From positions 62,001-126,000 of the forward strand of contig CAMXCT020005013.1 of NCBI GenBank assembly GCA_947184155.2: a stretch of 64,000 nucleotides of DNA, written 5' to 3'. Below, one piece after another: positions 11,973 to 30,530 of the stretch. This stretch comes from Cladocopium goreaui (taxonomy: Eukaryota; Sar; Dinophyceae; Suessiales; Symbiodiniaceae). Position numbers and translations under genes: made by a program. Every line of letters starts with the position of its first letter. Positions within the stretch are counted from its first letter, which is position 1. The notes under the pieces are model-generated. The model did not search any database, was not told the DNA's origin, and was given only the letters and a program-made list of their open reading frames with translations.

Positions 11973-11984
11973 ATTACCCTGAGC

Positions 11985-12120
11985 ATCGAATATTGATTCC
12001 AATCAATAGTCTTTTATCAAGATTGATTTGGGTCTGAAATCACTTTTTTGAGATTGATTTGATTCAGGAATCAATCTGAAAGGCTACAAATTTGAAGGCA
12101 AAAATCAATCTGAAAACCAA
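11985..12120. repeat. GATTGATT words with small inverted repeats
   Basis: TTGATTCCAATCAA and TTGATTCAGGAATCAA lie close together with several ATTGATTT / AATCAATC words in both orientations. The purpose is unknown. Confidence 0.5.
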
Positions 12121-12400
12121 CCCTTTTCCAGCCCAAAATCAAAAGTTACAGACCAGCACACACCTTTTTGCTTCCTGCATCTCAAGTCAGATCAGTCTTG
12201 GTCTTTGCCAAGAAGCTTCCCTTTTTCAAGTGGCATTGCCTTTTGCAATTTCTCTCTGTACAATCCTTTGCATTAATTCCTTTTCAATGTTTTTGGAAAT
12301 AGTGCATCTTTTTCACGGTGCCTTGCATTTTTTTCCAGATGCCATGCCATGTCCAGTTTCAAATGCAAGGTAGTACCTTGTTCAAGGTATGCCCCTTCAC

Positions 12401-15400
12401 CTACCCCTGACCTTTCTCCACATTTGTGGCTGCTTCCTGCATCCCCTCTCTTGTAAACAGGAAATGCAGTAGGATTCTGTACTTGGGGGCTACCTTGGCA
12501 TTGAGTCTGATGGATGAAACACAAGGACTCACGCTTGCAGTCAGAATTGGTATTTTCCCAACAAAGTCTTCACTGGCAAAGGTCCAACGTACCCTGGGGT
12601 TCAAGAATTTTGGATGTAAATGCTGCATTGTGTGATGTTTAATGACCTTATTGAACAAGGTCCTCCCTTCTTCAAGGGCCTAAGTTGATAGAAACTCATA
12701 ATTGTCTGAGAACCCTTTTTCAAGGGACATTGCTGCCTTCCACTGAGCCTCAGTCAAAAACGCTGAAGCATCATCAAAGATGGCGACAATGTCAGACATG
12801 CATTGTGTGGCCTGGAGCATGGCATTTTCATGGGGGCTGGTAGGGTCCAAGAGCTCCTTGCAAACAGAAGAAATGCATCCAAGAAATGCATTGTTTCAGA
12901 AGCCCTCAGGTCCAGATTGGCAAATGATTCGAGGGGACGGGCATCACAAATCATGCTCATTCGCAGGTTAGTGACCCTGGTTGTGCCTTGCCTCTGATAC
13001 TCCAAGGCTTGGAACGGTGCACCCAACCTTTTGTCAGGGGCCACTGATTGGACCACACCAACACCATCATGCCAGCAGAGATAATGTATGATACCACCCA
13101 GAAGGTGCCCCAGCACCCCTTTGCAGAACAATATGTGAAGACAATCTCCCCTGACCATCTTTGGGCCAAGCCAGGGATCATGCCACTGAAGAGGCTGTGG
13201 CCACTTCCGGGGTTCTTCGTGGCCTCCTCATTGGAAACCTTTTTGAAGCCCTGCTTCCCTTTTTCAAGGGTTTTGTACCACAGGTTGGCTGGGGCTGCAT
13301 CTTTTGAAGCATTGCATTCCCAGCATGGTTTTTTGCATTTGAGAAAAACTCCTGAACCCCTTGGATGCTCCACAAGACACCCCTGCAACCTTTTGCTGAG
13401 GGTTACCCTTTTTCAAGGAAGAATGGGGAATCCTCTTTCAATGCCTTCCCTTTGGGGTCATGGGTGGGGTGGTATCCGTTTTGCAAGGCTGCAAAGCTCC
13501 ATGATATCCACTCCCACATAGTGACCCAGGGATCATCCAAGGCGCAGCTCTTGGGGAAGCCAGCAATGTACATGTGACTGCACAATGAATTCTTCTGGCT
13601 CAGGGGTGGCCCCCAGCTGTAAACCATGATGTGTCTCTGGATTGAAACTCTACACCACCCCCATGGACAAAGAGTGGTAGACAGCACTTCTTCCAAGACT
13701 TTCCCTTTTTCAAGGGGTGGTTGATGAGCCTGTCATCATCAGTCTTTTCAGCTTGGGCCCAAAAGCTCTCCAAGCAGTCCAAAGGGAAGAGTTTATCAAA
13801 GCTGCTGTTAGTAGCTAGCTTTGAAAACATGATATGGGGGAAGAAAACTTGGGCAGTTTCCACATCCTTTTTCAAGGTTTTGGGATGCTTGCATGGCACT
13901 GCAATTGGGAAGCCAGTAGGCAAGCCAATGCCTTTGCAAAAGTTTGCCATCAAGTCCCTGTGGACATTGCCTGGGTTCACCCCATGGGAGCCACACTTGG
14001 CAATTGCAACCAGCTCATGGTGCTCTGCCCCATCCAAGGTAACACATTCTGCCAGCCACCTGATGGTGGTTCCTGGCAGCTTGCCATGGCACCAAAGGGT
14101 CAGCAATGCTGTTGCCAAGGCAGTGCTGTCACATTTTTTAAAGGGCTCATCCAGAATTCCCAGCTCTTGTTCAAGCTGCCAAACCCTGAGCCTTTTAGCA
14201 ATTGCTTTTTCAAACCCTACCTGGCCCTACCTTGGAACGCTACCCTTTTAGAAGGGGTCCTTTTTTCAAGAAAGACACTTTTTCAAGGAAATACCGTTTT
14301 AGAGGGAATCCTTTCTGCAATGGCAAGGAAATCCTTTTTCAAGGTTGGTCACCAGGAAAGCCTCTGTATCTGTATACCTAGTTATGGTCTCTAAAAACAC
14401 TTTCAAGCCACAAGCTGCAGAATGCCAATGCATACACTGCTCCAAATTGTGGTGCAACATGCTGTTAAGCAGCAACACTGGTAGCAGCACTAGCAGCAGC
14501 AGCAGCAGCAGACCTTTTTTTTTTGCATGTTTCTGTGCTTTGTCCTGGCAGGCTGTTGCTGCCAACTGTACACACAAGAGCTGATGTCAACCTTGTTCAA
14601 GGAGCACAGCTATATATGTATTTTCCAAAACCACAAGGCCTTCCATGAAGGATGCCCAGCCAAGCCATGCTCCAACCTTTTTCAGGGTTGTTTACTTTTT
14701 GCTGGGCTTGCTGGGTGTCTTGCTGCCTGCTTTGCTGTTGGCCTTGTGGCTAAACTGGACCAGCTCTTTGGCCTCATCCTTTGCATCTTTGGTGCAAGCC
14801 ACAACTACCAGCAAGTGCTTTTTCAAGACTTGTGGCTTAGCCTTCTTTCCTTTCTCAAGGAGTGACTTGGTGCTTTTCAGCATCTTTGCCAACTGCTCAA
14901 GCATGGCCTGCTTGTCCTTCAAGCCTGCCTTGCTCAAGGGCTCTTCTTCACCTTTTTCAAGGCTTCAAAGTTGCTGTGGGTCCTGGTGGGCATCTCCTTG
15001 GCTGCTTTCAGCTTTTTCAAGCCTTCTTCCAAAGACAAGGGTGCATCACCGTCTTCCTCATCCTCCTCCTCCTCCTCACCCTCACCACTGGTCAAGGCTG
15101 CCAAATTTCCTTTTTTGCCTTCGGCCTTGCCCTTGCCCTTGCCTCTGCCTTTTTCAAGGCCCTTGCTTTGCCTTTTCCAAGGCTACACAGCATGAGGGAG
15201 TGCAGGTCCTTATCCAAGGCTTTCTGCCACTCATCCTCATCTTCTTCCTCCATTGGCATATTCTTGGCCAAGGTGGCAAGACTGTGCATGCCTGCCCACA
15301 TGTGCTTTCACCACATCAGAAGTATCCATAGACTCCCAGCAGCCCCAAGTACTGGGGCATTCGCTGGCGACCAGTCGTCCACTTTCCAGATGCATGTGTT

Positions 15401-15872
15401 GCTCTTGCTCTGTCCACTTGGCATCCACCTCTTTCTGTGTCAGCCAATTCTCTTTCTTTTTCAAGGAGCTTTCAGTGGAGGCACCCTTGGTGACTTGGCA
15501 AAAGGAAGCCTGGCTTTTCTTCATCACGAAGACTATGTTGGCCAAGCCTTTTTCTTTCTTACCCATCGCCTCATACTCCTTTTTCAAGGCTTCATTGCCC
15601 TTCTTTTTCAAGGCTTTCTGTTGGTTATAGGCATTGCTCTTTCCACCAAAGACATTGAGCCTTGGAGGGCCAGAGCAGCTTCCTCTTCATTTGAATGCTC
15701 CTTGGCAACTTTAGCCACCTTCTCCTTGATGCTCAAATGGTTTCCCTTTGCCCTTTTTCAAGGGCTTCAACGTTTTCAAGTTGCTTTGGTGTTCATTGTT
15801 CTTGCCCTTTTTCAAGGCTGCTGCCTTCCTGACCTTGGCAAGGCCAGAGGCCTTCCTAGCTGGCCTTTTCAT
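12401..15872 (-). pseudogene. Decayed member of a large dinoflagellate-specific protein family (possible DDE transposase-like)
   Basis: From memory I recognise the order of conserved blocks of a multi-copy, uncharacterised family in Symbiodiniaceae genomes. Start: ATG at 15872 (MKRPARKASGLAKVRKAAAL). Then a Lys/Glu block (EKVAKVAKEHSNEEEAALAL; EYEAMGKKEKGLANIVF; SGRLVASECPSTWGCWESMD, about 15.7-15.2 kb), an acidic run plus SLEEGLKKLKAAKEM (about 15.07-14.98 kb), a Lys-rich linker (14.94-14.69 kb) and a core: GNVHRDLMANFCKGIGLPTG, PLFVHGGGVEFQSRDT (about 13.67 kb), GVLWSIQGVQEFFSN (about 13.36 kb), PCWECNA (about 13.32 kb), MVRGDCLHILFCKGVLGHLL (from 13158), RVRWTFASEDFVGKI and KVAPKYRILLHFLFTRE (12.6-12.4 kb). 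Blocks lie in different frames, so there are several frameshifts. An in-frame TAG at 12680-12682 stands where I expect Trp. The HGDG and QGDHE motifs read HGGG and QGVQE, so two conserved Asp are lost. A CAG run (about 14.5 kb) and an Asp/Glu run interrupt it. The long plus-strand frame (349 codons) is a shadow. Function is unknown; resemblance to CACTA-type transposases is inference. Confidence 0.8.
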
Positions 15873-16275
15873 ATTTGTTTTCACAGATTAAAACACAACA
15901 AAGCAAATTGAACCAGAATGGCTGCAGTGAAGGTGCCTTGAAAATGGCTTCCCATATCTAATAGACTTCCCCTCCAAACAAACATAGTTTTTTCTTGGGA
16001 AACAAGTTTATAGAATACACCTATACCAAAATATATCAACAGATTGAAAAATAGAGTCCAAATGGTTAGCAATATAATTCAAATATAAAAATACAAATCG
16101 GACAAATACGCTTGGTATATTTTCTTAAAGAGCTAATTTTAAACAAGACTGCAGAATTCTGTCTATGCGCAAAACATATGTACCAAACTTATCTTAAAAC
16201 GAAAAGCAAACCCAAAAAAATCAACCATAATGCCTGGAATCACATGAACAAATAAGATCAATGGGGAAAATAGTA
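15873..16275. other. Sequence upstream of the decayed gene
   Basis: AT-rich, with no reading frame of note. I see no TATA box or spliced-leader acceptor that I could defend. It would hold the promoter or leader-acceptor of the minus-strand gene if that gene was once active. Confidence 0.3.
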
Positions 16276-16368
16276 AAAGTAAAGCGAAGTGAAACAAAGT
16301 GAAGCAAAGTGAAGAAAAGTGAAGAAAAGCATGTTTCTTCACTTATTTTCACTTTTCTTCACTTTTTT
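16276..16368. repeat. Imperfect hairpin of AAAGTGAAG / CTTCACTTT
   Basis: The left arm is a run of AAAGTGAAGCAAAGTGAAG-type words. The right arm holds CTTCACTTATTTTCACTTTTCTTCACTTT. The loop is very short (around GCATGTTT), so the arms could fold into a stem of about 30 bp. It lies about 400 bp upstream of the decayed gene's start. Confidence 0.75.
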
Positions 16369-16630
16369 ATTGTCCTTTCTTTCCTTTTGTTTTTTAGCCA
16401 ACTCATTTTTCCAATATCTTGCCATGTAGTTTCATGGAACTAAACAAAAACAAAGTGCATCCAGAAACAATTTAACGTTGCCAAGCATCACTTTTTCAAG
16501 GCATTTATTTGCTCACTTGTGGGGTCTGCAAATGGGCCAAATACAAATAACAATTTCAACGGCTGAAAAACCAGAACTAAGGATTCAAACAAGGTACCGG
16601 CGCTGATAGCGGACCCGGTGTTTTTAATGA

Positions 16631-17310
16631 TTCCCCACCTGCCAGGTGAGGGTTGTTAGATTTTATCAGAACTGTCCTCCTCCTTCTCCGCCTCCTCCTC
16701 CGCCTCCTCCTCTTCCTCCTCCTCCAGTTTCTCCTCGACCATGTCTGCATCAACTTCCACGTCCACTTCCGCCTTGCCAACTCGTCGCCAATCTCTTCGC
16801 CAACTTCCGCGCGCAGTGGGCACTGCTGGACCTCAACTGCCGGCTTCCGATCTGAGTGGGCACGGCTGGACCTCAACCGCCAGGTTCTGAGCGCAGTGGG
16901 CACCGCTGGACCTCAACTGCCGGCTTCCAATCTGAGTGGGCACGGCTGGACCTCAACCGCCAGGTTCTGAGCGCAGTGGGCACCGCTGGACCTCAACTGC
17001 CGGCTTCCAATCTGAGTGGGCACGGCTGGACCTCAACCGCCAGGTTCTGAGCGCAGTACGCACCGCTGGACCTCAACCTGGGACCTTTTAGAGCTCAGTG
17101 GGCACCGCTGGACCTCAACCTGGGACCAGATAGAATGCTAGAAGATATGCCAGATAGAACGCCAGATAGAATGTCAGATAGAATGCCAGAAGATATGCCA
17201 GATAGAATGCCAGAAGATATGCCAGATAAAACTCCAGAAGATATGCCAGAAGATTTGCCAGTAACAAAACGTATAAATGTCATGGTGGGGATGACTCGAA
17301 GTAAAGTACT
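16631..17310 (+). repeat. Composite dispersed repeat, copy B
   Basis: Second copy of the four-part repeat seen at 764-1372: leader CCCCACCTGCCAGGTGAGGG plus TTGTTAGATTTTAT, a long CT-rich run (TCCTCC), a tandem array, a 12-bp CCAGATAGAATG / CCAGAAGATATG series and the closing GGTGGGGAT...ACTCGAAG. Part 2 is expanded here: a roughly 90-bp unit pairs CAGTGGGCACCGCTGGACC with TGAGTGGGCACGGCTGGACC and repeats from about 16818 to 17070. A 61-codon plus frame (17135-17320) is built from Met-Pro-Asp-Arg / Met-Pro-Glu-Asp repeats. Confidence 0.85.
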
Positions 17311-17679
17311 TTTTATTTAAACAATTCTTCATTGATTTGTTTAAAACTGTGGCGCCGGCGGTTGGAAGTGGTTTGAAGCTGTGAAAAATGATGATAATGG
17401 TTTGCTACATCTAGATGCTTTGTGTTGTCTGGGAATGGTTGTGCTTTGCTATGCCTGTGTGTAATTGTGGTATGTCTCTGGTCATGTGGGTGGCATGCAT
17501 GTTTTGAGCCAAACCAAATCAGCTGCTTTCATGCCGGTTATGAGGGCAGAGTGCCTGTCCAAGGCTTTGAACAACAGCCCTGCATCCAGGTATGGTTTGG
17601 CAAAGTGTCTCGGACCGCCTTCAATCTGAAAAGAAGGAAGTTTCTTGATTGGAACCAATATTCGATGCTCAGGGTACAT
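17311..17679. other. No recognisable gene
   Basis: A GC-moderate stretch. A minus frame (17482-17925) runs on into the array that follows. TTGAGCCAAA at 17506-17515 matches part of the reversed dinoflagellate spliced leader but goes no further. Confidence 0.4.
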
Positions 17680-18150
17680 GGTCATGACATGGGAACGACG
17701 TGGTAATGACATGGTAGTGACCTGGTATATAATGGCATGGCGATGACATGGTGAGGAGATCCGAATGGTATGGTAACGAAATTGTAATGACGTGGTAGGG
17801 ACGCAGTGGCCAAATGGCAATGACATGGCAAGTGGGTGGTGATGAAATGGTGCTGATGAAACTAAGCAACGTGGTAATGACATGGAATAATGAAATGTCA
17901 ATGACTTGTTCAAGTGTGACGACATGATCTTGACATCGTACTAACATTGTAGCGGCATGGTACTGACATGGGGTAATATGGCAACAGAAAAACAATGACA
18001 TGGTAATGAGATGGTCATGACATGGTGTTGACATGGTAACGACGACATGGTGTCAAGATGGTAAAAACACTGGCATGACCACTCACATGGTATCGACATC
18101 GTCCTGACATGATGACCAGAGAGTAATCACACAACAAATGACATGATGAC
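17680..18150 (+). repeat. Degenerate CATGGTAATGA array
   Basis: About 35-40 copies of an 11-13 bp unit around GACATGGTAATGA, with frequent base changes (CATGGTAGTGACCTGG, GCATGGCGATGACATGG). The two minus frames across it are His/Thr/Ser-rich repeat artefacts. Confidence 0.85.
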
Positions 18151-19214: not shown

Positions 19215-20705
19215 CTCTATGCAGTTCATACGTAGTTTATATGCAGTTTATATGCTGTTTATATGCGGTTTTTAAAACTGCATATGAACTACATGGAAAG
19301 CGGCGGATAGAACGCCGCCTGTTTTTCCAACCCTTGCGAGTTCACTTTCCCTGTGTTTTCTCAGGTTTTTTTGCTTTCGTCCATTTTTTGGACCCTTTCA
19401 AGTCCTGCGACAAACTACTTCGTTTTTGCAATGTTTTATGTGTAAGTGTTCATTTCTTTGTATCACAAGCTTGAACCGTTCAATGACTACCATTAAAGTC
19501 CACGTGAATCCCATCAATTTAACTCAAAAAGAATGGACTAGTGGTAAATGAATTTACATAAACCTGGGACATAGAATGGTATATAGGTATAATTAATGTA
19601 GAAACCTTGTTTCCTCTTACTTTACAAAAGTACAGAACATACCATCAAGAGCGTGTCAGAAGTTGCTAGGGAAAAGTGCAGAGCGTAACATCAAGAGCGT
19701 GTCAGAAGTTCCTAGGAAAAAGCGCAGAGCGTAACATCCAGAGCGTGTCAGAAGTTCCTAAGGAAAAGTACAGAACATACCATCAAGAGCGTGTCAGAAG
19801 TTGCTAGGGAAAAGTGCAGAGCGTTACATCAAGAGCGTGTCAGAAGTTCCTAAGGAAAAGTGCAGAGCGTCACATCAAGAGCGTGTCAGAAGTTCCTAAG
19901 GAAAAGTGCAGAGCGTAACATCAAGAGCGTGTCTGAAGTTCCTAGGGAAAAGTGCAGAGCGTAACATCAAGAGCGTGTCAGAAGTTCCTAAGAAAAGTGC
20001 AGAGCGTAACATCAATAGCGTTTCAGAAGTTCCTAAGGAAAAGTGCAGAGCGTAACATCAAGAGCGTGTCAGAAGTTCCTAAGGAAAAGTGCAGAGCGTA
20101 ACATCAAGAGCGTGTCAGAAGTTCTTAAGGAAAAGTGCAGAGCGTAACATCAAGAGCGTGTCAGAAGTTCCTAAGAAAAAGCGCAGAGCGTAACATCAAG
20201 AGCGTGTCAGAAGTTCCTAGGGAAAAGTGCAGAGCGCAAAATCAAGAGCGTGTCAGAAGTTCCTAGGGAAAAGTGCAGAGCGTCACATCAAGAGCGTGTT
20301 TGGAATGAGCGTGTTCCACGCACTCTGAACAGGACATTAATACCCCACCCCACCCCCCCCCACCCGCACCCCAGGGAAAATTGCAGAGCGTAACATCAAG
20401 AGCGTGTTAGAAATGAGCATGTTCCACGCACTCTGAACAGGACGTTAATACCGCCCCCACCCCCCCCACCCCACCCCATCAAAACAGCAAGGGCGCGTGA
20501 CAAAAAGTAGAGGAGAAACAGAAAAACGCACGAAAGCAGGCGGCGTTCTACCCGCCGCCAGCCAACTACATGTAGTTTGATCAAAAGTACAATGTAGTTT
20601 ATATGCAGTTTTGAAAAAACATATAAACTGCATAAAAACTTGAAAAACTGCATGAGGAATATAGATAGAGTTTATATGAACTACATACAAACTGCACAAA
20701 AACTA
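19215..20705. mobile_element. Foldback-like element carrying a 46-bp satellite
   Basis: The left arm (about 19215-19325) and right arm (about 20545-20705) are inverted copies. Both contain several TATGCAGTTTATATG-type sub-repeats, an ACTGCATATRAACTACAT stretch, and the word GGCGGRTAGAACGCCGCCTG (reversed on the right). Arms made of short sub-repeats are typical of foldback elements. Between the arms is the 46-bp array, then a duplicated block with GTTCCACGCACTCTGAACAG followed by a C-rich run. No transposase frame is present. Confidence 0.65.
19627..20300 (+). repeat. 46-bp tandem array, about 15 units
   Basis: Each unit holds GAGCGTGTCAGAAGTTCCTA followed by AGGAAAAGTGCAGAGCGTAACATCAA. Variation is mostly at CTAAGG/CTAGGG and CGTAAC/CGTCAC. 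The first unit and one other carry AGAACATACC instead of AGAGCGTAAC. The final units degrade into a roughly 100-bp block present twice (about 20285-20362 and 20390-20470), each ending in a C-rich run. Confidence 0.9.
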
Positions 20706-21724: not shown

Positions 21725-22465
21725 TGCCACACTCCACACTTTACCCACTGCACACTCCACACTCCACACTTTACACTCCACACTCCGCACACTACACTTT
21801 ACACTCCACACTCCACACTCTACACTTTACACTCTACACTTTATACTCTACACTTAACTTGACACTCTACACTTCACACTCGACACTTTCCGTTCCGCAC
21901 TCCACACTCTACACTTTATACTCCAGGCTCCACACTTTACACTTTACACTCCTCACTCCTCACTCCACGCTCTACACTCCACACTCCACGACACTCAACA
22001 CTCTACACCCACCACACTCCTCACTCCACACTCCACACTTTACATTCCACACGCCACACTTTACACTCCACACTCGCCACTTTCCACTCCACACTCTACA
22101 GTTTACACTCCACACTTTACACTTTACACTCCTCACTCCACACTCAACACTTTACACTCCACACTCCTCACTCCACACACTACACTCCACACTCCACACT
22201 CCACACGCCACACTCCACCACGTTCTACACTCTACACACACCACACTCCTCACTCCATACTCCACACTTTACACTCCACACGCCATACTTTACTTTCCAG
22301 ACTCCACACTTTACACTCCACACTCCACACTTTGCACTCCACACTCTACACTACACTATACACTCCACACTCCACACTCTACACTTTACACTCTTACTTT
22401 TTACAATCTACACTACACATTCCACACTCTACACGCTCTACACTCCCCCCCACTCCACACTATAC
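21725..22465 (+). repeat. 7-bp array of CTCCACA / CTTTACA
   Basis: About 105 heptamers, mostly CTCCACA, CTTTACA, CTCTACA and CTCCTCA. The 7-bp period makes all three plus frames read related Thr-Leu-His-Ser / Leu-Tyr-Thr-Pro peptides. It is not the TTTAGGG-type telomere repeat: the unit lacks a CCC or GGG core. Confidence 0.9.
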
Positions 22466-25400
22466 AAAGCACTTCCCAGTACTACTTTGCACTGCAAAGC
22501 TTGCACAAACTACTTCCCAGTACTTTGTACTACACAGCTTGCACAAAGCACTTCCCAGTACTACTGTGTACTACACAGCTTGCACAAACTACTTCCCAGT
22601 ACCACTTTGTACTACAAAGCTTGCACGAAGCACTTCCCAGTACCACTTTGTACTACAAAGCTTGCACGAAACCGTTCCCAGTTCTACTGTGTACTACAAA
22701 GCTTGCACAAAGCAATTCCCAGGACTACTTTGTACTACAAGGCTTGCAAAGTCGTTCCCAGTACTACTGTGTACTACAAAGCTTGCAACAACTACTTCCC
22801 AGTACTACTTTGTACTACAAGGCTTGCAAAGTCGTTCCCAGTACTACTGTGTACTACAAAGCTTGCAACAACTACTTCCCAGTACTACTTTGTACTACAA
22901 AGCTTGCACAAAGTCGTTCCCAGTACTACTTTGTACTACAAAGCTTGCACAAAGTCTTTCCCAGTGCTACTGTGTACTACAAAGCTTGCACAAAGCACTT
23001 CCCAGTACTACTGTGTACTACAAAGCTTGCACAAACTACTTCCCAGTACTACTGTGTACTACAAAGCTCGCACAAACTACTTCCAAGTACTACTGTGTAC
23101 TACAAAGCTCGCACAAACACGTTCCCAGTACCACTGTGTACTACAAAGCTTGCACAAACTACTTCCCAGTACTACTGTGTACTACAAAGCTCGCACAAAC
23201 TACTTCCCAGTACTATTGTGTACTACAAAGCTTGCGCAAAGCACTTCCCAGTACTACTGTGTACTACAAAGCTTGCACAAAGCACTTCCCAGTACTACTG
23301 TGTACTACAAAGCTCGCACAAACACGTTCCAAGTACTACTGTGTACTACAAAGCTTGCACGAAGCACTTCCCAGTACTACTGTGTACTACAAAGCTTGCA
23401 CAAAGCACTTCCCAGTACCACTTTTTACTACAAAGCTTGCACAAAGTCGTTCCCAGTACTACTGTGTACTACAAAGCTTGCACAAAGCACTTTCCAGTAC
23501 TACTGTGTACTACAAAGCTCGCACAAAGCACTTCCCAGTACTACTTTGTACTACAAAGCTTGCACAAAGCACTTCCCAGTACTACTTTGTACTACAAAGC
23601 TTGCACAAAGCACTTCCCAGTACTACTGTGTACTACAAAGCTTGCACAAACTACTTCCCAGTACTACTGTGTACTACAAAGCTTGCAACAACTACTTCCC
23701 AGTACTACTGTGTACTACAAAGCTCGCACAAAGCACTTCCCAGTACTACTGTGTACTACAAAGCTTGCAGAAAGCACTTCCCAGTACTACTGTGTACTAC
23801 AAAACCGGCACAAACACGTTCCAGTACTACTGTGTACTACAAAGCTCGCACAAACACGTTCCCAGTACTACTGTGTACTACAAAGCTCGCACAAACTACT
23901 TCCCAGTACTACTGTGTACTACAAAACTTGCACAAACACGTTCCAGTACTACTGTGTACTACAAATCAAAGCTCGCACAAACACGTTCCCAGTACTACTG
24001 TGTACTACACAGCTTGCACAAACTACTTCCCAGTACCACTTTGTACTACAAAGCTTGCACGAAGCACTTCCCAGTACTACTGTGTACTACAAAACTTGCA
24101 CAAACACGTTCCAGTACTACTGTGTACTACATAGCTCGCACAAACACGTTCCCAGTACTACTGTGTACTGCAAAGCTCGCACAAAGCACTTCCCAGTACT
24201 ACTGTGCACTACAGAGCTTGCACAAAGCACTTCCCAGTACTACTTTGTACTACAAAGCTTGCACAAAGTCGTTCGCAGTACTACTTTGCACTACAGCACA
24301 AAGTCGTTCCCAGTACTACTGTGTACTACAAAGCTTGCACAAAGCACTTCCCAGTACTACTGTGTACTACAAAGCTTGCACAAAGCACTTCCCAGTACTA
24401 CTGTGTAATACAAAGCTCGCACAAACTACTTCCCAGTACTATTGTGTACTACAAAGCTTGCACAAAGCCGTTCCCAGTACTACTGTGTACTACAAAGCTT
24501 GCAACAACTACTTCCCAGTACTACTGTGTACTACAAAGCTTGCACAAAGCACTTCCCAGTACTACTGTGTACTACAAAGCTCGCACAAACTACTTCCCAG
24601 TACTATTGTGTACTACAAAGCTTGCACGAAGCACTTCCCAGTACTACTGTGTACTAGAAAGCTCGCACAAACACGTTCCCAGTATATACTACTGTGCACT
24701 ACAAAGCTCGCACAAACTACTTCCCAGTACTACTGTGTACTACAAAGCTTGTAGAAAGCACTTCCCAGTACTACTGTGTACTACAAAGCTTGCACAAAGC
24801 ACTTCCCAGTACCACTTTTTACTACAAAGCTTGCACAAAGTCGTTCCCAGTACTACTGTGTACTACAAAGCTTGCACGAAACCGTTCCCAGTACTACTGT
24901 GTACTACAAAGCTTGCACAAAGCACTTCCCAGTACTACTTTGTACTACAAAGCTTGCACAAAAAGTGTTCCAGTACTACTGTGTACTACAAAGCAGCAAA
25001 ACTACTTCCCCCCCCAGACTATGAGGTCACTACAAAGCTCGCACCAAAGCACTCCCCAGTACTACTGTGTACTACAAAGATGCACAAAGCACTTCCCAGG
25101 TAATACGGTGTACTACCAAAGCTGCACAAAGCACTTCCCAGTACTACTGTGTAACTACAAAGCTTGCCACAAAGTCGTTCAGTTCTACTGTGTACTACAC
25201 AGCTTGCAACAACTACTCCCAGTACTAATTTAATATAAAGCTTGCCAACAAAGTTGTTCCCAGTACTACTGTGTACTACAAAGCTTGCACAAAGTCGTTC
25301 CCAGTACTACTTTGTACTACAAAACTGGCACAAACACGTTCCCAGTACTACTTTGTACTACAAAGCTTGCACAAAGTCGTTCCCAGTACTACTGTGTACT

Positions 25401-28400
25401 ACAAAGCTCGCACGAACTACTTCCAAGTACTACTGTGCACTACAAAGCTCGCACAAAAACGTTCCCAGTACTACTGTGCACTACAAAGCTTGCACAAAGC
25501 CGTTCCCAGTACTACTGTGTACTACAAAGCTCGCACAAACTACTTCCAAGTACTACTGTGTACTACAAAGCTCGCACAAACTACTTCCCAGTACTACTGT
25601 GTACTACAAAGCTCGCACAAAGCACTTCCCAGTACTACTGTGTACTACACATGCACAAACACGTTCCAGTACTACTGTGTACTACAAAGCTCGCACAAAC
25701 ACGTTCACAGTACTACTGTGTACTACAAAGCTCGCACAAACTACTTCCCAGTACTACTGTGTACTACAAAGCTTGCAGAAAGCACTTCCCAGTACTACTG
25801 TGTACTACAAATGCACAAAGCACTTCCCAGTACTACTGTGTACTACAAAGCTTGCACAAAGCCGTTCCCAGTACTACTGTGTACTACAAAGCTCGCACAA
25901 ACTACTTCCAAGTACTACTGTGTACTACAAAGCTCGCACAAACTACTTCCCAGTACTACTGTGTACTACAAAGCTTGCAGAAAGCACTTCCCATTACTAC
26001 TGTGTACTACAAATGCACAAACACGTTCCAGTACTATGTGTACTACAAAGCTTGCACAAACTACTTCCCAGTACTACTGTGTACTACAAAGCTTGCAGAA
26101 ACACGTTCCCAGTACTACTGTGTACTACAAAGCTCGCACAAAGCACGCACAAAGCACTTCCCAGTACTACTGTGTACTTCAAAGCTTGCAGAAAGCACTT
26201 CCCAGTACTACTGTGTACTACAAATGCACAAACACGTTCCAGTACTACTGTGTACTACAAAGCTTGCACAAACTACTTCCCAGTACTACTGTGTACTACA
26301 AAGCTTGCGCAAAGCACTTCCCAGTACTACTGTGCACTACAAAGCTCGCACAAAGCACTTCCCAGTACTACTTTGTACTACAAAGCTTGCACAAAGCACT
26401 TCCTGCACAAACTACTTCCCAGTACTACTTTGTACTACACAGCTTGCACAAAGTACTTCCCAGTACTTCTGTGTACTACACAGCTTTCACAAACTACTTC
26501 CCAGTAGCACTTTGCACTACAAAGCTTGCACGAAGCACTTCCCAGTACTACTGTGTACTACAAAGCTCGCACAAAGCACTTCCCAGTACTACTGTGTACT
26601 ACAAAACTTGCACAAAGCACTTCCCAGTACTACTTTGTACTACAAGGCTTGCAAAGTCCTTCCCAGTACTACTGTGTACTACAAAGCTTGCAACAACTAC
26701 TTCCCAGTACTACTGTGTACTACAAAGCTTGCACAAAGTCGTTCGCAGTACTACTTTGTACTACAAAGCTTGCACAAAGTCGTTCCCAGTACTACTGTGT
26801 ATTACAAAGCTTGCACAAAGCACTTCCCAGTACTACTGTGTACTACAAAGCTTGCACAAAGTCGTTCGCAGTACTACTGTGTACTACAAAGCTTGCACAA
26901 AGTCGTTCCAGTACTACTGTGTACTACAAAGCTCGCACAAACTACTTCCCAGTACTACTGTGTACTACAAAACTTGCACAAACTACTTCCCAGTACTACT
27001 GTGTACTACTAAGCTCGCACAAACACGTTCCAGTACTACTGTGTACAACAAAGCTCGCACAAACACGTTCGCAGTACTACTGTGTACTACAAAGCTCGCA
27101 CAAACTACTTCCCAGTACTACTGTGTACTAAAAAGCTTGCAGAAAGCACTTCCCAGTACTACTGTGTACTACAAATGCACAAACGCGTTCCAGTACTACT
27201 GTGTACTACAAAGCTTGCACAAACTACTTCCCAGTACTACTGTGTACTACAAAGCTTGCAGAAGCACGTTCCCAGTACTACTGTGTACTACAAAGCTCGC
27301 ACAAACTACTTCCAAGTACTACTGTGTACTACAAAGCTCGCACAATCACGTTCCCAGTACTACTGTGTACTACAAAGCTTGCACAAAGTACTTCCCAGTA
27401 CTACTGTGTACTACAAAGCTTGCACAAAGTCGTTCCCAGTACTACTGTGTACTACAAAGCTTGCACAAAGCCATTCCCAATACTACTGTGTACTACAAAC
27501 CTTGCACAAAGTCGTTCCCAGTACTACCGTGTACTACAAAGCTCGCACAAACTACTTCCCAGTACTACTGTGTACTACAAAGCTCGCACAAAGCACTTCC
27601 CAGTACTACTGTGTACTACAAAGCTTGCACAAAGCACTTCCCAGTACTACTGTGTACTACAAAGTTTGCACAAAGTCGTTCCCAGTACTACTGTGTACTA
27701 CAAAGCTTGCACAAAGCACTTCCCAGTACTACTTTGTACTACAAAGCTTGCACAAAGTCGATCCCAGTACTACTGTGTACTACAAAGCTTGCACAAAGTC
27801 GTTCCCAGTACTACTTTGTACTACAAAACTGGCACAAACACGTTCCCAGTACTACTGTGTACTACAAAGCTCGCACAAACTACTTCCAAGTACTACTGTG
27901 TACTACAAAGCTCGCACAAAAACGTTCCCTGCACTACTGTGTGCTACAAAGCTTGCACAAAGTCGTTCGCACGCAGTACTACTGTGTACTACAAAGCTCG
28001 CACAAACTACTTCCCAGTACTACTGTGTACTACAAAGCTTGCACAAAGCCGTTCCCAGTACTACTGTGTACTACAAAGCTTGCACAAAGCACTTCCCAGT
28101 ACTACTGTGTACTACAAAGCTCGCACAAACACGTTCCAAGTACTACTGTGTACTACAAAGCTTGCACGAAGCACTTCCCAGTACTACTGTGTACTACAAA
28201 GCTTGCACAAAGCACTTCCCAGTACCACTTTTTACTACAAAGCTTGCACAAAGTCGTTCCCAGTACTACTGTGTACTACAAAGCTTGCACAAAGCACTTC
28301 CCAGTACTACTTTGTACTACAAAGCTTGCACAAAGCTTGCACAAAACACTTCCCAGTACTACTGTGTACTACAAAGCTTGCACAAAGCACTTCCCAGTAC

Positions 28401-29004
28401 TACTGTGTACTACAAAGCTTGCACAAAGCACTTCCCAGCACTACTGTGTACTACAAAGCTTGCACAAAGTCGTTCCCAGTACTACTGTGTACTACAAAGC
28501 TTGCAACAACTACTTCCCAGTACTACTTTGTACTACAAAGCTTACACAAAGTCGTTCCCAGTGCTACTGTGTACTACAAAGCTTCCACAAACGCGTTCCA
28601 GTACTACTGTGTACTACAAAGCTTGCACAAACTACTTCCCAGTACTACTGTGTACTGCAAAGCTTGCAGAAGCACGTTCCCAGTACTACTGTGTACTACA
28701 AAGCTCGCACAAACTACTTCCAAGTACTACTGTGTACTACAAAGCTCGCACAAAAACGTTCCCAGTACTACTGTGTACTACAAAGCTTGCACAAAGTCGT
28801 TCCCAGTACTACTGTGTACTACAAAGCTTGCACAAACTACTTCCCAGTACTACTGTGTACTACAAAGCTTGCACAAAGCCGTTCCCAGTACTACTGTGTA
28901 CTACAAAGCTTGCACAAAGCACTTCCCAGTACTACTGTGTGCTACACATGCACAAACACGTTCCAAACCACTGTGTACTACAAAGCTCGCACAAACTACT
29001 TCCC
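22466..29004 (+). repeat. 41-bp satellite, about 159 units
   Basis: Units contain TACTACAAAGCTTGCACAAA, a variable four-base slot, TTCCCAGTACTACTGTG. The spacing is exactly 41 bp where checked (23221 to 23262). Change is concentrated at three sites: CTTG/CTCG; the slot (GCAC, GTCG, CTAC, CACG or GCCG); and CTGTG/CTTTG. The plus consensus has no TAA, TAG or TGA, and 41 is not a multiple of 3, so all three plus frames stay open and read the same 41-residue cycle in different phases. This explains frames of 955 and 1,263 codons, which I do not take as genes. Each perfect unit has an AAGCTT site. Confidence 0.97.
24960..25265 (+). other. Disordered segment inside the 41-bp satellite
   Basis: Here alone the units have many one-base insertions and deletions, a CCCCCCCCC run near 25010, and spacing that drifts off 41 bp. 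Units are regular on both sides. It may be an old array edge or a low-quality assembly join. Confidence 0.6.
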
Positions 29005-30530
29005 CTATAGACACTGCGACATCCACGTAGCAAAAAACACGAGGTGTTGCAGCTTCCCCTAGAGACACTGCGACGTGCACGTAGCAAAAAGCACGAGGGT
29101 TTTGCAGCTTCCCCTATAGACACGGCGACATCTACGTAGCAAAAGACACGAGGTTTTGCAGCTTCCCCTTTGGAGACTGCGACATCCACGTAGCAAAAGA
29201 CACGAGGTTTTGCAGCTTCCCCTATAGACAATGCGACATCTACGTAGCAAAAAACACAAGGTTTTGCAGCTTCTCCTATAGACACTGCGACATCGACGCA
29301 GCAAAAGACACGAGGTTTTGCAGCTTCCCTTATAGACACTGCGACATCTACGTAGCAAAAAACACGAGGTTTTGCAGCTTCCCCTATAGACACTGCGACA
29401 TCGACGCGGCAAAAGACACGAGGTTTTGCAGCTTCCCCTATAGACACTGCGACATCTACGTAGCAAAAGACACGAGGTTTTGCAGCTTCCTCTATAGACA
29501 CTGCGACATCTACGTAGCAAAAGACACGAGGTTTTGCAGCTTCCTCTATAGACACTGCGACATCCACGTAGCAAAAAACACGAAGTTTTGCAGCTTCCCT
29601 TATAGACACGGCGACGTCCACGTAGCAAAAAGCACGATGTTTTGCAGCTTCCCCTTTGGAGACTGCGACGTCCACGTAGCAAAAAGCACGATGTTTTGCA
29701 GCTTCCCCTTTGGAGACTGCGACATCCACGTAGCAAAAAACACGAAGTGTTGCAGCTTCCCGTATAGACACTGCGACATCTACGTAGCAAAAAGCACGAT
29801 GTTTTGCAGCTTCCCCTACAGACACTGCGACATCTACGTAGCAAAAACACGAGGTTTTGCAGCTTCCTCTATAGACACGGCGACATCCACGTAGCAAAAA
29901 ACACGAGGTTTTGCAGCTTCCCCTATAGATACGGCGACATCCACGTAGCAAAAAACACGAGGTTTTGCAGCTTCCCCTATAGACACGGCGACATCCACGT
30001 GGCAAAAAACACGATGTTTTGCAGCTTCCCCTATAGAGAGTGCGACATCTACGTAGCAAAAAACACGAAGTTTTGCAGCTTCCCCTACAGACACCGTGAC
30101 ATCTACGTAACAAAAGACACGAGGTTTTGCAGCTTCCCCTATAGACACTGCGACATCGACGCAGCAAAAGACACGAGGTTTTGCAGCTTCCCTTATAGAC
30201 ACTGCGACATCTACGTAGCAAAAAACACGAGGTTTTGCAGCCTTCCCTATAGACACTGCGACATCCACGTAGCAAAAAACACGAGGTTTTGCAGCTTCCC
30301 CTATATAGACAATGCGACATCTACGTAGCAAAAAACACGATGTTTTGCACCTTCCCTTATAGACACTGCGACATCTACGTAGCAAAAAACACGATGTTTT
30401 GTAGCTTCCCCTATAGACACGGCGACATCCACGTAGCAAAAAACACGAAGTTTTGCAGCTTCCCCTATAGACACTGCGACATCTACGTAGCAAAAGACAC
30501 GAGGTTTTGCAGCTTCCCCTATAGACACCG
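29005..30530. repeat. 54-bp satellite, about 28 units
   Basis: Units read roughly CCCCTATAGACACTGCGACA, TCTACGTAGCAAAA, then ACACGAGGTTTTGCAGCTT. As 54 is divisible by 3, the unit gives an 18-residue repeat, and frames on both strands stay open (minus up to 462 codons with CYVDVAVSIGEAAKPRVF-type units; plus FCSFPYRHCDIYVAKNTR-type units). The array starts abruptly in a 41-bp unit at the shared word CTTCCC (28999-29004). Confidence 0.95.

Follow-up and report, generated by a model that had tools for sequence, protein, structure and literature searches.

A probable relic of a dinoflagellate DNA transposon family with a CMCT-like putative transposase and hairpin arrays on the coding strand

A broken element bounded by inverted repeats

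The window analysed here is the whole 64,000-nt stretch of DNA (G000:C5010:62001-126000), and it holds a broken and internally deleted element enclosed by a pair of terminal inverted repeats (TIRs) and a duplicated TA (Table 1). Counting the TA on each side, the two TIR arms span 39 nt and are 90% complementary, and the terminal pattern occurs in the window exactly twice, at 11977 and 17674 in opposite orientations, against an expectation of 0.00 from 100 window shuffles. The subterminal ATTGAT/ATCAAT repeats likely represent transposase binding sites. Remnants of three open reading frames (ORF4, ORF3, and the first part of ORF1) lie on one strand, while a tblastn search of the element with the ORFs of relatives did not find the remainder of the ORF1-2 region, the place of which is occupied by minisatellites.

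The original prediction, made from the letters alone, had described positions 12401..15872 as a broken gene of a dinoflagellate family and a possible transposase relic. The broken gene was borne out, but the unit itself is larger and runs from 11977 to 17674 with both ends included. Its readings of the sequence were also correct: Gly and Val codons stand where two Asp are expected, a TAG lies in frame, and the gene changes frame several times, its pieces being spread over three minus-strand frames. The proposal of a dead transposase gained support, as both Asp are gone from this copy, its frame is broken, and the greater part of ORF1-2 is missing. Having lost both Asp and the frame, the copy makes no transposase, although with both TIRs still present another copy might still mobilise it. 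We regard the element as very probably a dead member of a DNA transposon family that moves by cut-and-paste, with part of its interior deleted.

Table 1 Features of the element in the window (positions are those of the window).
Feature	Position	Strand	Basis
Whole element, 5,698 bp, broken and internally deleted	11977..17674	genes on minus	TIR pair; relatives with sharp ends
Target duplication TA, left copy	11975..11976	.	flank comparison
Target duplication TA, right copy	17675..17676	.	flank comparison
Left TIR, 37 bp, begins CCCTGAGCATCGAATATTGAT	11977..12013	+	TIR pair
Right TIR, 37 bp	17638..17674	-	TIR pair
Subterminal ATTGAT/ATCAAT repeats, n = 6	11992..12109	.	repeat count
ORF4 remnant, putative transposase, frameshifted	12416..14205	-	tblastn with intact relative, E 1.7e-147
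First catalytic Asp position, here Gly, GGT (HGGG)	13657..13659	-	codon read
Second catalytic Asp position, here Val, GTT (QGVQE)	13355..13357	-	codon read
C(2)C motif retained (PCWEC)	13314..13328	-	translation
In-frame TAG	12680..12682	-	codon read
H(3)H motif retained (HHTMQHL)	12617..12637	-	translation
Putative last catalytic Glu retained (ASEDFVG)	12557..12577	-	alignment with relatives
ORF3 remnant, Lys-rich protein	14707..15893	-	tblastn E 1.4e-65
Minisatellites, 80/40-bp and 24/12-bp units, at the place of ORF1-2 in full elements	16799..17250	.	
ORF1 remnant, first part only	17512..17622	-	tblastn E 1.5e-5
18 hairpin cores CTTGAAAAAG; starts (+ coordinates) 12221, 12715, 13259, 13408, 13705, 13867, 14278, 14334, 14818, 14952, 15012, 15149, 15456, 15579, 15603, 15753, 15807, 16491	12221..16500	-	all 18 oriented alike; none reversed, none outside the element in the window

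Family size, termini, and target duplications

The dinoflagellate spliced-leader 21-mer had 172 matches in the 1.17-Gb genome and none for its backward control, which identifies the genome as that of a dinoflagellate, the origin that the original prediction had given for the gene. The family is large, as also predicted: a 208-aa ORF4 piece used as query gave 150 scored matches out of 412 candidates, and a second search with an intact ORF4 relative returned 69 listed matches, in 53 of which the frame stays open, free of stops, over 600 aa or more. Viral and prokaryote contigs searched for relatives yielded 20 and 52 pattern matches, respectively, and none was confirmed.

In six 10-kb stretches around relatives, the copies are almost the same (98.8-99.8% identity between compared pairs), are probably recent given this identity, and end sharply at a common terminus, CAGGG, beyond which the flanks differ and are unrelated. 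Genome-wide, the terminal pattern (≤2 mismatches) had 349 matches, compared to 5 for the backward pattern, and among the terminus matches listed many pair about 9 kb apart, with several pairs enclosing family genes. Both ends were compared for 20 paired-end elements chosen from this list: 18 of the 20 are flanked by a 2-bp target duplication and none by a 3-bp identity. The duplicated dinucleotides are of six kinds (TA 7, AA 4, GA 2, TT 2, AT 2, TC 1), and the two elements without matching 2 bp are C766, with an N on the left, and C335, with GA vs. TA. Full-length copies thus have the terminal repeats that the original prediction had proposed to look for, together with 2-bp target duplications, and so does the copy in the window. 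One relative, C1185, shares its flanks with the window copy and is 94.5% identical to it over 3.9 kb, so that the two are not independent and reflect one insertion that was duplicated.

These observations bear on what kind of locus this is. A host gene in decay that happens to lie near inverted repeats would be in keeping with a large family unannotated in the libraries searched, but the TIRs and TA duplication enclose the locus exactly, ORF1 and ORF3 remnants follow the order of full elements, and elsewhere in the genome the gene is bounded by these ends too, leaving this explanation with hardly any probability. Among other element types, a Helitron is contradicted by the inverted repeats and target duplications. 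One copy (L040, G000:C976:19161-29160) retains the CAGGG terminus and starts abruptly 3.8 kb upstream as a truncated copy, with no left terminus among the terminus matches listed; the 5′-truncating retroelement at which it hinted is contradicted by the paired TIRs and 2-bp duplications.

Gene content and the ORF4 signature

Full elements are about 9 kb long and combine CCCTG...CAGGG inverted-repeat ends and ATTGAT subterminal repeats with ORF1-4 on one strand. In two full elements from different subfamilies, C391 (9,024 bp) and C2 (9,178 bp), the four ORFs all lie on the same strand, with identities between the two of 32%, 28%, 32%, and 45% for ORF1 to ORF4 over 275, 121, 322, and 333 aligned residues; ORF4 is frameshifted in the C391 copy. 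ORF2 had no useful match in Pfam, PDB, or NCBIfam, and neither did ORF1 and ORF3 of the C2 element in Pfam or NCBIfam. The C-terminal half of ORF2 in one element (L086, 5756-6994, minus) contains DWHHTL and FDD, which we take to be motifs of a HAD-type phosphatase-like domain. Between the two ORF pairs lies an AT-rich palindrome (L086 4658-4745, L087 4263-4339, L088 4352-4464) that matches miRNA-like Rfam models below threshold and in L088 does so on both strands. Across these three elements, the Rfam scan gave 14 matches up to E = 1, mostly to miRNA-like models on AT-rich palindromes, of which none reached the gathering score.

The conserved residues of ORF4 follow the order D-(101)-D-(19)-C(2)C ... 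H(3)H-(19)-E, which in an intact relative (L011, numbered from Met) corresponds to D183, D284 (+101), C303 (+19), C306, H539, H543, and E562 (19 after H543). In an alignment of 15 hand-picked loci, near-duplicates included and with L013, L018, and L044 (second Asp = Gly) left out, D, D, and C(2)C are present in all 15 rows, and H(3)H and E in all 13 rows that reach them. A wider count covered 35 places, comprising all collected loci of at least 3 kb, with motif patterns written for this ORF4 family. The first-Asp motif was found in 34 of these, with Asp in 33 and Gly in the window copy only, and the second in 31, with Asp in 27, Gly in two (C4063 and C1680, both with open frames), and Val in two (the window copy and C1185). 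Conservation of the two Asp across the family, another expectation of the original prediction, was hence confirmed where the motifs could be found.

The CMCT clade of transposases is defined, in PMC12730594, by C(2)C and H(3-4)H motifs between the second D and the last E, and by 2-5 bp target duplications. By this layout, the last catalytic acid of ORF4 is probably the Glu of SEDFVG, kept in the window copy, and probably does not lie in the GD-LH-KG-LLG helix, which the original prediction had listed after the Cys-x-x-Cys. ORF4 itself had no match in Pfam, NCBIfam, or PDB sequences, nor did five ORF4 pieces from the window in Pfam. Transposase_21 (PF02992) gave no hmmscan hit, and a genome-wide search with this profile found none, a search in which its controls were also unmatched. 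The class of ORF4 is hence read from motif layout, by which it looks like a RAG1/CACTA-type transposase.

Comparisons of coding sequences show that ORF4 is under purifying selection between subfamilies, with dN/dS of 0.13 (L022/L034, dS 1.7) and 0.19 (L039/L086, dS 2.3). Three further distant pairs had saturated dS, and four near-identical pairs gave 0.12, 0.16, 0.79, and 1.87, from few changes. In the reading that we propose, ORF4 encodes an RNase H-like DDE transposase that belongs to the CMCT clade and has a C2-H2 zinc site; it would bind the subterminal repeats, cut at the CCCTG ends, and join the cut ends to a target opened with a 2-bp stagger. Speaking against this reading are the negative database searches, ends that depart from the usual CA..TG, the two open-framed copies with Gly at the second Asp, and the scattered dN/dS values of the near-identical pairs. 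ORF4 could instead be an accessory or passenger protein, with ORF1, 2, or 3 as the transposase and the CMCT-like order due to convergence or chance, as the three other conserved ORFs and the missing sequence-database support for ORF4 would allow. Against this, conservation between the two subfamilies is highest in ORF4 (45% vs. 28-32% in the other three ORFs), which keeps all seven signature residues, and we consider a passenger role improbable. With ORF4 as the likely transposase, a large dinoflagellate protein family unannotated in the libraries searched can be assigned to a TIR transposon family, for which ends, target duplication, and likely catalytic residues are now supplied, making repeat annotation and corrected gene counts possible. 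No hint of domestication, which the original prediction had also raised, emerged from these comparisons. In the open-access PMC literature, as far as search listings show, no description of the transposon family or of its hairpins (see below) was found.

Relationship to known transposons

CACTA/EnSpm elements proper resemble this family in transposase layout, in subterminal repeats, a known feature of CACTA elements, and in DNA termini starting with C. They differ in that the family has a 2-bp instead of a 3-bp duplication, CCCTG instead of CAC ends, and no match to Transposase_21; its ends and 2-bp duplication place it outside CACTA proper. The CACTA/EnSpm-type layout originally suggested thus holds at the level of the CMCT clade, which includes CACTA/EnSpm, and not for CACTA in the strict sense. 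The lack of a Pfam match, the four ORFs (one presumably HAD-like), and the hairpin arrays on the coding strand further set the family apart from CMCT elements. Transib elements make 5-bp target duplications, compared to 2 bp here.

In mouse RAG1, the corresponding residues are D600, D708 (+108), C727 (+19), C730, H937, H942, and E962 (+20) according to PMC4914335, so that spacings of 101, 19, and 19 in ORF4 compare with a nearly equal 108, 19, and 20, whereas ORF4 has no detectable sequence similarity to PDB chains. By the description in PMC12730594, the family shares with CMCT elements the D, D, and E with C(2)C and H(3)H, the TIRs, and a 2-bp duplication, but ends in CCCTG..CAGGG in place of the usual CA..TG, termini that are found in most cases and so are not strictly defining. 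Within the same source, PlavakaA has a 2-bp duplication and the same motif set, while Plavaka ends are TGT..ACA or CATCA..TGATG. The introners of Symbiodinium and Amoebophrya are likewise TIR-bearing dinoflagellate DNA elements, but, according to PMC9860276 and PMC7789003, they are short, sit in introns, and in S. microadriaticum have 4-bp duplications, in contrast to the 9-kb gene-bearing elements and 2-bp duplications of this family.

Hairpin arrays on the coding strand

On the gene strand, the 10-nt core CTTGAAAAAG forms a mini-hairpin, CTT-GAAA-AAG, and all its occurrences in the window lie in the element and in one orientation (Table 1), as do the 15 occurrences of CTTTTTCAAGG. Over nine sequences, the subfamily-specific hairpin cores number 231 sense vs. 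4 antisense, with up to 59 exact cores per copy (sense/antisense: C391 59/0, window 18/0, C2 32/1, C291 41/1, C3813 41/1, C2112 13/1, L026 10/0, L034 11/0, L022 6/0; C1185, L020, L023, L025, L031, L037, and L038 were left out of this test). Loops vary by subfamily: GAAA in C391 and the window copy, G[A/C/G]CAA in C2, C291, and C3813, GGAAA in L022 and L034, and in C2112 a range of GNRA loops (GAAA, GCAA, GGAA, GAGA, GGGA) plus some GAAG. Hairpins with stems of at least 5 bp show the same asymmetry and outnumber those of shuffled sequences, both for GNRA loops (sense/antisense, shuffle mean: C391 41/0, 0.60; C2112 27/1, 0.87; C1185 9/3, 0.57; window 7/0, 0.47) and for GVCAA loops (C2 22/0, 0.07; C291 26/1, 0.10; C3813 33/1, 0.10). 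Outside the elements, 76,061 nt contained 7 GNRA and 1 GVCAA hairpins on both strands together, with three of the seven GNRA hairpins in satellite DNA. L031 and L038 have neither GNRA nor GVCAA hairpins; loop enrichment was absent from L037 and L038 and confined to GGA triloops (3) in L031.

The arrays follow the gene-bearing parts of the element. In C391, cores number 6.5-16.9 per kb within ORF1-2 and ORF3-4 and in the gap that separates the members of each pair; they thin out to 0.5 per kb in the 2-kb stretch dividing the two pairs and to 2.7 per kb at the 3′ end, and the first 135 bases have none. Such a distribution would be in keeping with two transcripts. Across the four intact ORF4s that were analysed, cores use only the two frames that avoid TGA. 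LEKG was rejected as a selected peptide, since cores use two frames and also lie in the spaces separating ORFs. Genome-wide, CCTTGAAAAAGG and CCTTGACAAAAGG had 1,697 and 873 matches compared to 398 and 109 for their controls, and the 100 matches listed for each comprise strand-uniform clusters, several at known copies, as well as singletons. In otherwise sense-only arrays, a lone antisense core lies mid-element at ~4.5-4.7 kb in G000:C2:1078127, C169:691286, and C291:503499. A different dense repeat around CCCTTAGCAAAAGGG, with 24-25 copies of its 9-mers, lies beside the family copy L025 (G000:C5796).

Covariation and possible role of the hairpins

Pairing of the three bases beyond the core on each side was compared to 5,000 re-pairings of the flanks. 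None of these reached the observed pairing in C391, C2, C291, C3813, and C2112, and few did in L026 (61/5,000), L034 (200/5,000), and L022 (31/5,000); in the dead window copy, 565/5,000 did and the pairing was not significant. Sliding one flank by one or two bases abolished the excess in the five large elements. Among homologous hairpins in three element pairs, which overlap and are not independent, sites with both flanking bases changed retained Watson-Crick pairing in 16/21 cases at positions 1-2, 3/11 at position 3, and 4/37 at positions 4-5. Folding-energy z-scores in 100-nt windows, with a background of two stretches of which one is mostly satellite DNA, were mixed, showed no clear sense-strand bias, and did not support the hairpins (mean sense/antisense: C391 -1.25/-1.18, C2 -0.86/-0.47, C291 -0.16/-0.09, C2112 -1.02/-0.65, C3813 -0.33/-1.10, window -0.46/-0.05).

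The hairpin pattern, its strand bias, and covariation are direct observations. Their loops are GNRA-like, their stems vary yet remain complementary, they keep to one strand and to the gene-bearing parts, and in the dead copy they have decayed; on these grounds the hairpins look like RNA hairpins kept by selection, which presupposes that they are transcribed and fold as RNA. The mixed folding energies and the lack of GNRA/GVCAA arrays in L031, L037, and L038 count against such selection. Alternatively, the arrays might stem from a DNA-level process inside the elements, either very small palindromes that move about or template switching by which quasi-palindromes are made perfect. The z-scores, not clearly sense-biased, are in line with such a process, as is the coincidence in the alignment of some cores with residues present in other subfamilies. 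However, stems differ between cores, which are thus not copies of one unit, loops remain GNRA-like yet vary by subfamily, and the 231 to 4 strand bias and the depletion of cores between the two ORF pairs of C391 also speak against it, so that we rate a DNA-level origin as rather doubtful.

If the hairpins are indeed selected RNA structures, a loop-binding protein would most simply account for that selection. The up to 59 hairpins per element, with their subfamily GNRA-type loop, could then form a cis-acting RNA code of putative docking sites for an RNA-binding protein, a proposal that we see as evenly poised between right and wrong. The binder, perhaps a product of the subfamily's own ORF1-3, would recognise, protect, or export the element's own RNA, with LEKG/LKKG and LTKG/LDKR arising as incidental peptides. 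The boxB hairpins of phages lambda and P22, in which tetra- or pentaloops of GNRA-like type, GACAA among them, cap short stems of the transcript, offer a likeness in their loops and short stems, on the gene strand in this family. They differ in that the element hairpins number up to dozens per element, lie inside and between coding frames of a eukaryotic transposon, and have no known binding protein. To our knowledge, no comparable hairpin signal has been seen in any DNA transposon. Should the arrays be RNA signals, a DNA transposon would here be labelling its transcripts by a novel means, and a so far undescribed RNA-binding system would be implied.

Other repeats in the window

Beyond the element, the window contains several tandem repeats. 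A degenerate 11-bp ACATGGTAATG repeat (17676-18043) forms the right flank of the element and is common to the C1185 copy. Further along lie a 46-bp repeat with ~15 copies that are 92% alike (19626-20299), and a 41-bp repeat with ~159 copies and a strong GC skew (22464-29004), directly after which lies a 54-bp repeat (28999-30500).
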